Source: a virus. From it: 25,508 nucleotides of DNA. The stretch is from positions 1 through 25,508 of the IMG/VR virus record IMGVR_UViG_3300023500_000025; one strand, given 5' to 3'. The notes beneath the pieces are model-generated. The model saw only the letters and a list, made by a program, of their open reading frames with translations. It was not told where the DNA came from and did no database searches. This document shows positions 12,842 through 25,508 of the stretch, piece by piece. Position 1 is the first letter of the stretch. Each line of letters opens with the position of its first letter. The position numbers and the translations under genes were made by a program.

Positions 12842-13320
12842 TATATTGCCCCCTGTTCACGTTGGTTTATTTCTGCAAATAATTGCTGCATGTCTTGCTC
12901 TGTTACTGTGTCTGCATGGGTTTTTGCGTACATGGCTAGGGTTTCGCCCAATGCTTGTTTAATGGTTTCTATCGGTAGTTGTGGTAATAAATTTCCTTTT
13001 ACCACATCTTCTAGCAGCATAAAAAACAGCTTCATACCCACCGCTGACGCTACTTCGGGGCTTACGGGTTGCTGCTGCTCTAACGATTGGATGACGGTGT
13101 TTATGGCGGTTGCCATGGCTTTAGGAAATCCCTCTTCGCCACTGGTTTTAAACAGTTCTACCAATCGGTCAAAATGCTCGCCATACAATAAACCAACGGC
13201 TTGCTTTAAAGTGTCGGCTGTTTGTGCTGCTGGGTCTGCTTGCCCTTCATTTTGCGGCATGCTTTCTGCCGGTGGCATTTCACCTTGCTGCTCATTTGGA
13301 TTACTCATTAATGAATTCAT
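12841..13320 (-). CDS. Small acidic helical phage structural-region protein
   Basis: This is a 159-residue acidic protein. The first 35 residues are a low-complexity Gln/Pro/Glu-rich segment. The rest is predicted helical, with hydrophobic stretches around residues 95-110 (F-F-M-L-L-E-D-V-V) that look like the core of a helical bundle. The start ATG overlaps the stop of the upstream gene (ATGA), and a GAGGGG Shine-Dalgarno lies seven bases upstream within that gene's last codons. A second in-frame ATG four codons later is possible. No family is recognised. It sits between two internal-protein candidates, so a virion-assembly role is likely but not shown. Confidence 0.65.
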   Translation of the reverse strand: MNSLMSNPNEQQGEMPPAESMPQNEGQADPAAQTADTLKQAVGLLYGEHFDRLVELFKTSGEEGFPKAMATAINTVIQSLEQQQPVSPEVASAVGMKLFFMLLEDVVKGNLLPQLPIETIKQALGETLAMYAKTHADTVTEQDMQQLFAEINQREQGAI

Positions 13321-14470: not shown

Positions 14471-15616
14471 TTAGAACCCCCCATCATATACTTGTTGTGG
14501 TGGCGGTTGATATTGTGGTGGCGGTTGATATTGTGGTGGCGGATTATCATTATTTTCAATGTCACGCTCATTAATGCGATCATTAGCAGCGTTAGGGTCA
14601 ATACCAAACGCATTAGAAAATGAAAGTGAAACGTTTGTTGATGCAATTAAAGAGTCAATGCGGATTTGCGCCTCTTCTTGAGAGAAGGTATCAGACTTAA
14701 TAATGTCAGAAATACCTAACATTAATTGTTGATAAATGTTGCCTTGTACGGTGTCCATGTTATGAATCATTTTATATTCATTTTTAATGGTTTCAAGTTT
14801 CACAACATATTCTTGATTAATATCTGCCAAATTAACTTTAATCTCGCCTTCTAATTCTTTTAGGTCTTTTTTATACTCAAAATCTTTGCGTAACTCTTCT
14901 GAACGAAATGTTCGATCACGAATATCTGCACTTTTTTCAAAATTTAATTTATCACGCTGAAGGTTTTGCTTTCCGCTTCGCTCTAGCTCTTGATTTATCT
15001 TTTCATTATAAGCACCTTGCTTAAACTCATATTTTTGATTGTCTAATTTTTGATTAAATCGTTGGTCATCATTATAAGCACCTTGCTTAAACTCATATTT
15101 TTGATTGTCTAATTTTTGATTAAATCGTTGGTCAACATTTAACTCATTCACATCAAAAACAGATTCTTTATGTTTAATTTCAGAGTTAAACATTAGTGCT
15201 TTGTTCTTGTTTTCGACATTAAACAATTGGGTGTTATTGTCACTCGCATTGTTATCAAAAGCCGCTTTGTTTTCTGCCGCTTGGTTGGCGCTTTGTTGGT
15301 TAAAATTGGTGCTGGCATCTTGCATAGCAATCGGTGTTGCAGCATCAAGCATTGCTACCTCACTTGCGCCTACCGCCATGCTGCTGTTTAAAGTTCCACG
15401 GCTGTTAGCCTCCTGCAATGCCCGTGTTTTAGCGCGTTTCATCAACGCACTGTTTGGGTCCATTACTTTGTTTAATTGCGTTTGAACTAATGAGTTATCA
15501 TTTACATTAGCTGTTACCGCTTTATAGCCAGTGGTATTAGCAACAACTGGTTTAATGGGCGCTGCGTTTCCATTGTAAGATTTAATGGTGGCTGGTGGTA
15601 CCATAAGTGAAGGCAT
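14471..15616 (-). CDS. Internal/tail-associated protein with coiled coil and repeats
   Basis: This is a 381-residue protein. Residues about 1-112 form a module also present in the gene just upstream (about 53 of 72 aligned residues identical by eye over the core N-D-N-x-L-V-Q to Q-Q-S-A). The rest is a long charged coiled coil (about 113-285) containing a perfect 22-residue tandem duplication (162-183 and 184-205), then a short helical region. The C-terminus holds P-P-P-Q-Y-Q repeats (359-370) and ends Y-D-G-G-F. A clear AAGGA Shine-Dalgarno lies seven bases before the ATG. The shared module suggests that both proteins dock at the same virion site. The function is otherwise unknown. Confidence 0.7.
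   Translation of the reverse strand: MPSLMVPPATIKSYNGNAAPIKPVVANTTGYKAVTANVNDNSLVQTQLNKVMDPNSALMKRAKTRALQEANSRGTLNSSMAVGASEVAMLDAATPIAMQDASTNFNQQSANQAAENKAAFDNNASDNNTQLFNVENKNKALMFNSEIKHKESVFDVNELNVDQRFNQKLDNQKYEFKQGAYNDDQRFNQKLDNQKYEFKQGAYNEKINQELERSGKQNLQRDKLNFEKSADIRDRTFRSEELRKDFEYKKDLKELEGEIKVNLADINQEYVVKLETIKNEYKMIHNMDTVQGNIYQQLMLGISDIIKSDTFSQEEAQIRIDSLIASTNVSLSFSNAFGIDPNAANDRINERDIENNDNPPPQYQPPPQYQPPPQQVYDGGF
14495..14542 (-). repeat. 18-bp tandem repeat coding for PPPQYQ
   Basis: Two full and one partial copies of an 18-bp unit (14495-14512, 14513-14530, 14531-14542) encode the Pro/Gln/Tyr repeats at the C-terminus of the coiled-coil protein. The period keeps the reading frame. Confidence 0.85.
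15003..15134 (-). repeat. Perfect 66-bp tandem duplication
   Basis: Bases 15003-15068 are repeated without change at 15069-15134. The unit codes for 22 residues of coiled coil (D-Q-R-F-N-Q-K-L-D-N then Q-K-Y-E-F-K-Q-G-A-Y-N-D). Perfect identity at the DNA level implies a recent duplication. Confidence 0.9.
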
Positions 15617-15667
15617 AATTTTTCCTTGAAATAATTTAACTGAAAATAAAAATATTAATAAATTTAA

Positions 15668-16444
15668 TTACGTTGTTGAATCAGTGATTAAACCCAAATT
15701 TGCTAATGCTGTTATCAAGCTTGATAAAGCCGCATTACCACCTTTTGAACCAGTAACAGTTTGCTTAGCAACGGGCGTTGAATTTGCATAAAAACCCATT
15801 GTGTTTGCACTTAACCCCAACGATATAAGCGCATTACCCGATGCATTACTGCCTATGTCTAAATTGTCATAAGCACCCACACCATAAGCATGAAAAACCC
15901 CTTTTCCCGATGCAAAGCTTACTTTTGATAACTCTAAATGAAGGGCACTACCATCATCATAAGTTTTTAAATCTGTTGCACTGTTCGACCCATTTTTTAA
16001 ACTTAATTTGGCTTCTGTATTATTTTGAGTTCCCGTATTAATGCTTAAACCATGATTAAGCGCATCTTCTTCGGTGTCGTCACCTAGGGTTATATCTTTT
16101 TTAAATTCACTTACACCAAAATAAACATTCTTAGCCGATGCGCTATCTTGCTGAAAGTGCGTTCCAGCATCTTGCACAGCAATCGGTGTAGCTGCTTCAA
16201 TCATTGCCGACTCTGCCGCACCCACTGCCATGCTAGAATTCACTAAACCACGCGAATTAGCCGTTTGCAAAGCCCGTGTTTTGGCTCGTTGCATTAATGG
16301 ATTAGCGGGATCAATTACCTTATTTAATTGATTTTGCACTAAAGCGTTATCGTTAACCCCTTGCGTCACCGCATTATAATTTTGGGTGTTAACGTTTACA
16401 TTCTCAACCGGTTTAACCGACTCCATAGCCGCAGTAGAAGCCAC
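15668..16444 (-). CDS. Fibre-tip protein body, cut off from its natural start by an amber codon
   Basis: The 258-codon open frame begins at a GTG without a good Shine-Dalgarno; an ATG at 16426 is the next option. Residues about 30-102 are the module shared with the next gene. From about residue 105 the protein changes to a Gly/Ser/Asn-rich beta-type domain. It ends in T-P-V-A-K-Q-T-V-T-G-S followed by a G-N-A-A-L-S-S-L and G-L-I-T-D-S-T-T pattern (223-258), which I recognise as a common C-terminus of phage fibre or appendage proteins. The same frame continues upstream through one TAG (16487-16489) to an ATG at 16531 that has a strong AAGGAG site. The body is therefore reached by readthrough, by reinitiation, or not at all (pseudogene). 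Confidence 0.6.
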   Translation of the reverse strand: MASTAAMESVKPVENVNVNTQNYNAVTQGVNDNALVQNQLNKVIDPANPLMQRAKTRALQTANSRGLVNSSMAVGAAESAMIEAATPIAVQDAGTHFQQDSASAKNVYFGVSEFKKDITLGDDTEEDALNHGLSINTGTQNNTEAKLSLKNGSNSATDLKTYDDGSALHLELSKVSFASGKGVFHAYGVGAYDNLDIGSNASGNALISLGLSANTMGFYANSTPVAKQTVTGSKGGNAALSSLITALANLGLITDSTT

Positions 16445-16485
16445 CGCTGCATTAGGTTGCTTAACCGGTGATGTAAAGTTTTTAG

Positions 16486-16504
16486 CCTAATCAAATTGAT
16501 TAGG
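16486..16504. repeat. Perfect 19-nt palindrome (9-bp arms, 1-base centre)
   Basis: CCTAATCAA, one A, then TTGATTAGG. The amber codon of the leader ORF lies in one arm. It could be an operator-like protein-binding site or an RNA hairpin around the stop codon; with a one-base centre, the RNA loop would need to open some pairs. Confidence 0.8.
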
Positions 16505-16531
16505 CGCAGAGCGTGACATAAGTGCAGACAT
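16487..16531 (-). other. 14-codon leader ORF ending in amber, homologous start of the fibre-tip protein
   Basis: The ATG at 16531 follows an AAGGAG Shine-Dalgarno by eight bases and opens M-S-A-L-M-S-R-S-A-P-N-Q-F-D before TAG. The beginning parallels M-P-S-L-M of the related gene at 15616, and CTT-ATG is conserved at codons 4-5. The frame is the same as the 258-codon body downstream (87 bases, 29 codons apart). It therefore looks like the true N-terminus of that protein rather than an unrelated short gene. Confidence 0.6.
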
Positions 16532-16592
16532 GTAAATGACTCCTTAAAAATGTTGTGTTAGTTTTTAAAAGATATAAAGCGATGTTTTTGTA

Positions 16593-17033
16593 TTAAATAA
16601 CAATCTTAGTATGAACAGGCCATACGATATTTGACTCCAACGTAACGCCATCAGCAACACAGGTACGACTTAAGCCAACCATAGACTTAACCCATGCAAA
16701 GACGGAAGTGAGTTCAGCCTTACGTGGGGCATCTGCCGTGGTAGCGGCCTCTGCTGTCATATTCATCTGATCTTCTGCATCGTACATAGTATAGATTTGA
16801 GAGCGACATGAGTCTTTAATATCCTGCTGACGAGTTGCTTCTGCTTTATCAGTAATTTCTTGAGCTGAAAACTCAGGCTCTAATACTCCACCTGCTTCAA
16901 TAAACTCATTATATAAATCAGTGTGCTGTCTGCGGATGTTATCTCCTATAGATACTTGACCAGTAGAGCCATCATCAAAGGTTAGAGTTACCCAGTTAGA
17001 GTCTTGTGTTTGTTTTGCGCTTGTAATAATCAT
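16593..17033 (-). CDS. Tail-fibre assembly/chaperone-like protein
   Basis: This 146-residue protein lies 9 bp after the tail-fibre gene. It opens with a short beta-hairpin unit (W-V-T-L-T-F-D-D-G-S at residues 14-23) followed by Glu/Ala-rich helices (about 34-110) and a beta-like end. Position right behind a fibre gene and the small beta-then-helical plan fit phage tail-fibre assembly proteins or chaperones, but no signature residue settles it. The start ATG has an AAGAGA Shine-Dalgarno a few bases upstream. An alternative is a small fibre-tip or connector protein. Confidence 0.5.
   Translation of the reverse strand: MIITSAKQTQDSNWVTLTFDDGSTGQVSIGDNIRRQHTDLYNEFIEAGGVLEPEFSAQEITDKAEATRQQDIKDSCRSQIYTMYDAEDQMNMTAEAATTADAPRKAELTSVFAWVKSMVGLSRTCVADGVTLESNIVWPVHTKIVI

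Positions 17034-24053: not shown

Positions 24054-24054
<1 letters not shown>
23863..24054 (-). CDS. Small helical protein behind the portal gene
   Basis: This 63-residue protein reads T-W-R-V-I-K-A-H-V-E-K-E-L-x-R-Q-R-E-D-L in its first half, followed by C-R-G-A-I-L-Q-L-K-T-L-L. It is predicted to be two amphipathic helices. I recall similar small proteins next to portal genes of podoviruses, but their role is unknown. Its ATG overlaps the portal stop codon (TAATG), so it is probably translated by coupling. A terminator hairpin follows. No membrane segment or signal peptide is present. Confidence 0.75.

Positions 24055-25508
<1,454 letters not shown>

Follow-up and report, generated by a model that had tools for sequence, protein, structure and literature searches.

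An in-frame amber codon inside a perfect palindrome of a phage fibre gene looks like a recent lesion or a sequencing artefact, not a programmed switch

Introduction

In-frame stop codons in bacterial genes are described as common and short-lived, with the mobilome and phage category over-represented among them (Belinky et al. 2021, PMC7918605). Short inverted repeats are one setting in which mutations concentrate. In E. coli, template switching at quasipalindromes perfects imperfect inverted repeats and thereby creates mutation hotspots. According to the same account (PMC7202029), yeast CYC1 and phage T4 rIIB were the genes in which the association with quasipalindromes first came to light, and the E. 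coli thyA gene holds a natural template-switch hotspot. Amino-acid changes in yeast genes are also reported to arise by template switching (PMC8604942).

Other systems make use of an internal stop. In programmed readthrough, a conserved stop separates two coding parts and a structure lies downstream. In T4 gene 60, as described in PMC11194080, ribosome bypassing begins at a take-off codon that is followed directly by a UAG held in a hairpin, with a structured region beyond it. Some phages read TAG as an amino acid (PMC10607447, PMC11210395). The late genes of a recoded phage would be expected to hold many in-frame TAGs. For comparison, the reported share of E. coli genes that end in UAG is 7.4%, and among 253 highly expressed genes 2 do so (PMC8954436).

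Here we describe a short tail-fibre gene, interrupted by a single TAG, in the IMG/VR virus record IMGVR_UViG_3300023500_000025. All 25,508 bases of the record were analysed and are referred to below as the window; the source virus is an unclassified podovirus-like phage. As in the quasipalindrome template-switch systems (E. coli thyA and lacZ reporters, T4 rIIB), the change lies within a short perfect inverted repeat of a coding region. In contrast to those systems, both the event and the base change are ones that we infer, and no imperfect ancestor was seen. The locus also resembles the stops described by Belinky et al. 2021 (PMC7918605) in having a single TAG, a frame open on both sides and a body with signs of protein constraint. 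Those authors, however, report keeping stops shared by at least two species, whereas the fibre-gene stop has no orthologue among the loci that we searched.

Results

The 17 phage genes examined in the window all lie on the minus strand. Recognised genes include those for portal-like, major capsid, SU10-type adaptor, tail fibre and acetyltransferase proteins; for other genes we presume scaffold and internal virion protein functions, chiefly from gene order. In a comparison of capsid proteins, the nearest phages were 55-56% identical. Close to the record end, the portal-like protein (24054-25502) contains long Asp runs and EACGCE/EACGCEG repeats toward its N-terminus. The gene directly upstream of the fibre gene (16593-17033, 146 residues) had no family match above the cut-off and, among 134 loci, no relative beyond the window's own. 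Features of the fibre locus are collected in Table 1.

Table 1. Positions in the window of the fibre gene, its neighbour and the elements around the internal stop
Feature	Position	Strand	Basis
Short tail-fibre gene, 288 codons including stop, interrupted by TAG as codon 15	15668..16531	-	sequence and frame reading
ATG, ancestral start codon (most likely)	16529..16531	-	AAGGAG at 8-base spacing; codons 2-5 match neighbour at 10/12 bases
Shine-Dalgarno AAGGAG	16540..16545	-	sequence
Leader of 14 codons, MSALMSRSAPNQFD	16490..16531	-	translation
TAG in frame	16487..16489	-	sequence
Perfect 21-bp palindrome, 10-bp arms, 1-base centre, TAG in 3' arm (minus strand)	16485..16505	.	inverted-repeat scan
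Predicted 68-nt stem-loop starting 16 nt past TAG, pairs GTG 16444	16404..16471	-	RNA folding
N-terminal virion domain, conserved, duplicated in next gene	16136..16411	-	alignment, sequence searches
C-terminal fibre-tip module (GFYxxxTPVAKQTVTGSKGGNAALSSLITALANLGLITDSTT)	15668..15811	-	alignment, sequence searches
Related neighbour gene, intact N-terminal domain copy, start MPSLM	14471..15616	-	sequence, alignment

Past the TAG, the fibre frame continues for 272 sense codons up to a TAA ending at 15668. The ATG at 16531 is served by a six-base Shine-Dalgarno match lying 8 bases upstream, which ties with the AGGAGG of the capsid gene as the longest among the 17 gene starts compared. By contrast, no Shine-Dalgarno stretch of at least 3 bases was found for the ATG at 16519 or for the in-frame GTG (16444) and ATG (16426) that begin 43 and 61 nt past the TAG. 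The 12 bases that follow the ATG at 16531 are identical at 10 positions to those that follow the neighbour's start (15616), the best score among 136 pairings of gene starts (mean 3.8, sd 1.8). The resemblance spans the short stretch of the first five codons, and past them the neighbour's leader has no clear match to the palindrome region. An earlier note on this DNA had placed the start of the interrupted frame at this ATG and its AAGGAG site, had likened M-S-A-L-M to the neighbour's M-P-S-L-M and had found the later GTG and ATG to be without a good Shine-Dalgarno; our analysis bears out each of these readings and extends the likeness to the DNA level. Because the ribosome-binding site and the leader match both place the true start upstream of the TAG, the protein most likely began with this leader originally, and the TAG would be a derived change.

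Three minus-strand genes begin with M-x-(S/A)-L-M: MSALMS at 16531, MPSLMV at 15616 and MNSLMS at 13320. Such starts are possibly a common short N-terminal motif or the product of duplication.

The encoded protein appears to be made of two parts with separate distributions. The N-terminal domain (approximately residues 41-132) is 66-68% identical to the copy in the neighbouring gene, and the residues conserved in this domain are retained in the body of the fibre gene. It belongs to a widespread family of virion proteins, being present in 106 other loci among 134 (E 1e-3; some loci share a contig), and its nearest named phage is Pseudoalteromonas phage vB_Pun_Y3 (41% over 75 residues). The window carries the domain as a tandem duplicate (14471-16531), with one copy bearing the fibre-tip module, whereas each of the 106 other loci has a single copy.

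The tip module occupies the last ~45 residues. Its characteristic stretch, GFxGxxPVxxxTVTGSxGGNAALxSLLTxLAxLGLIxDST, stands at the end of the protein and is conserved to the final residues. We found the module in 37 loci among 191 (E 1e-3), counting the window's own two apart. Its matches are annotated as minor tail, tail fibre or tailspike proteins, among them those of Marchesin (62%), KLEP7 (51%) and Kradal (42%); the Marchesin match, to the minor tail protein of that Arthrobacter phage, spans the last 47 residues. None of the 37 other tip-module loci carries the N-terminal virion domain, whereas the protein in the window joins both. Judged from these alignments, it is a virion domain fused to a fibre tip, with a putative fibre function. 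The name "fibre-tip gene" given to it previously seems fair; a module of this kind also closes the tail fibres of other phages.

Structural and family searches add little to this assignment. A model of the read-through protein was weak (mean pLDDT 56.8, pTM 0.26); just two parts of it, the helical N-terminal domain (residues ~61-130) and a short helix at the C-terminus, reached fair confidence. A sequence search returned no solved structure for the C-terminal half, and neither Pfam nor NCBIfam gave a match to the protein. PHROGs yielded a single weak match in the last 30 residues (phrog_36468, E 0.0018), to which no function is assigned there.

Apart from the TAG, the fibre gene shows no sign of decay. 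A stop-free run of 272 codons has a chance of ~5e-9 in random sequence of this base composition, and we therefore regard the body as a real coding frame. Compared with the neighbour over 92 codons, it has 27, 20 and 55 differences at codon positions 1, 2 and 3. The suggestion that the lack of further stops speaks against old decay is thus supported by the open run and by the third-position bias. For the same pair, dN is 0.34-0.37 and dS 1.2-2.2; these values come from one paralogue pair with dS near saturation and are silent on the time since the stop arose. They show constraint across the long period that followed the duplication, and not specifically after the stop arose.

The TAG lies inside a palindrome that the earlier note had overlooked. 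No perfect inverted repeat in the window (spacer up to 8) is longer than this one, which covers nucleotides 27-47 of the ORF, with UAG at 43-45. As RNA, it is predicted to form a hairpin of 9 pairs at -12.1 kcal/mol (z -4.8), a stability matched by none of 200 shuffles and by 17 of the 5096 31-mers obtained by moving along the strand in overlapping steps of 5. The corresponding DNA hairpins score -7.8 and -8.2 on the two strands. The palindrome by itself is not rare: ten of 60 dinucleotide-shuffled windows had a repeat with arms of at least 10 and a spacer of 0-8, and three had one with a spacer of 0-1. What is less expected is that the only premature stop noticed falls within it, a coincidence of ~1 in 1000 by post hoc arithmetic (21-23 of 25508 positions). 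A palindrome around the TAG offers a mutational or artefactual route to exactly this stop. The exact palindrome was absent from viral contigs, and among 147 loci it occurred just in the window's own two. No terminator was found on either strand between 15400 and 17200, and no known RNA family in the window reached the gathering score.

The predicted stem-loop downstream of the TAG (-27.3 kcal/mol, z about -2.7 to -3.0) is weakly unusual. Six of 500 synonymous resamples folded as well, and 8 of 424 windows had as low a z. For the shorter stretch 16478-16420, z is 0.19, so the signal depends on the stretch chosen.

For this window, stop usage all but excludes genome-wide recoding of TAG. The 17 gene ends comprise 14 TAA, 2 TGA and 1 TAG, the last backed by a TAA one codon on, and the fibre-gene TAG is the single internal TAG in the 17 gene frames. 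No tRNA, including a suppressor with a CTA anticodon, was found in the window, which is probably a fragment of a larger genome.

We searched widely for an orthologue with the leader; very near records were possibly excluded from these searches. Leaving aside the window's own two loci, none was found among 134 loci (E 1) or among 191 (E 1e-3). Scanning viral contigs with the body gave one candidate stretch and with the neighbour eight, none of which was confirmed. Megablast of window positions 1-25000 against phage GenBank records produced no match, and a protein search of these records with the body produced two partial ones. Plasmids held no relative of the fibre gene. In bacteria, two families were searched and gave nothing beyond domain matches, in 6 of 395 genomes of one and 2 of 152 of the other, counts that include genomes already found by an earlier search.

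Discussion

The earlier note had put forward five explanations (regulated readthrough, reinitiation, a suppressor or recoded host, recent decay and a sequencing error) and preferred none. Given the intact body and the placement of the stop, the explanation that we favour, with moderate confidence, is a recent single nonsense lesion in an intact fibre gene, likeliest made by a hairpin template switch. As the two alignments suggest, the N-terminal virion domain of the neighbour would have been duplicated and joined to a common fibre-tip module. A short template switch in replication may then have perfected an imperfect palindrome and in doing so written the TAG. In the gene as sequenced, ribosomes entering at the strong site would make a 14-residue peptide and stop, and amber misreading or weak reinitiation at GTG 16444 or ATG 16426 would give little fibre, if any. 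That the remainder of the gene is undamaged leads us to regard the lesion as recent. The imperfect ancestral palindrome was not seen, there being no orthologue with the leader in the loci searched. An ordinary point mutation is a variant of this explanation and would look identical; a single change would turn any of 81 of the 287 codons into a stop, which makes a chance nonsense mutation easy.

The main rival to a true lesion is that sequencing or assembly went wrong at the hairpin, in which case the virus has a sense codon and a fully functional gene. The record probably comes from a metagenome assembly, nothing else in the gene is broken, and the inverted repeat around the TAG has an arm ending in GGC; both inverted repeats and GGC are reported to be motifs at which Illumina errors occur (Nakamura et al. 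2011, cited in PMC4787001). However, the authors of PMC4787001 express doubt about the folding explanation of these motifs, a consensus of several reads usually clears such errors, and we noticed no second broken gene in the window, though the listed ORFs are open by construction. On balance we consider an artefact unlikely. We think it distinctly less probable that the 14-codon ORF is a strongly translated leader peptide, with a few fibres made by reinitiation or from an internal start. Phage fibres are required in few copies, the leader's Shine-Dalgarno match is equalled in length by one other in the window and exceeded by none, and the GTG and ATG past the TAG are in frame. Yet both of these later starts are without a Shine-Dalgarno, and GTG 16444 is paired in the predicted stem. 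Moreover, the leader's start is homologous to that of the full protein next door, and hence was probably once part of a protein.

Programmed or regulated readthrough, yielding a rare full-length fibre, is in our view doubtful. Its appeal is that the UAG, the rarest stop in the window, separates two coding parts and is followed by a predicted stem-loop, an arrangement like that of known cases; being weakly unusual, the stem-loop counts as slight support. But known cases have a conserved stop, whereas here no orthologue with the leader turned up among the loci searched to show such conservation; the spacer is 15 nt, the signal of the stem-loop is lost in the shorter stretch, and no suppressor tRNA was found in the window. 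From geometry, a ribosome decoding the UAG would melt the hairpin in which that codon lies, which disqualifies this hairpin as a 3' stimulator. Bypassing of the gene 60 type, with take-off at the codon preceding the UAG, is extremely improbable. The fibre gene shares with T4 gene 60 a hairpin-borne UAG directly after the (here putative) take-off codon and a structured region downstream. Unlike in gene 60, the nascent peptide is too short, at 14 residues against a first slowdown reported at codon 21. The first matching landing codon, GAU, lies 136 nt past the UAG, whereas processivity in gene 60 is reported to drop beyond 56 nt (PMC11194080). In addition, the stem would be unable to form in the A site, since one of its halves is located upstream of the P-site codon. 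We give equally little credence to a phage that reads TAG as an amino acid across its whole genome. Although TAG-recoded phages exist, the single internal TAG here, the sole terminal TAG backed by a TAA and the lack of any tRNA within the window, which is probably a fragment, all speak against such recoding, which the earlier note had entertained in the form of a suppressor or recoded host.

A more speculative idea, to which we assign a very low probability, is that the UAG, the palindrome and the stem-loop form one control element. The 14-codon leader would be strongly translated and the stop rarely passed, leaving each virion with few copies of the extra fibre or none, and a population in which some particles have it and others lack it. 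Template switching at the palindrome might in addition turn the gene on or off over generations, a phase variation of the fibre driven by the hairpin.

The palindrome predicts that an imperfect repeat with a sense codon should occur in minor reads of the source sample or in a close relative. If the stop is a plain lesion, the gene would be one more accessory fibre gene of a phage to be interrupted by a lone nonsense codon, here in an unusually clear hairpin setting. If the stop is instead kept on purpose, it would serve this DNA phage as a translational switch that sets the amount of a likely host-recognition protein or turns it on and off.
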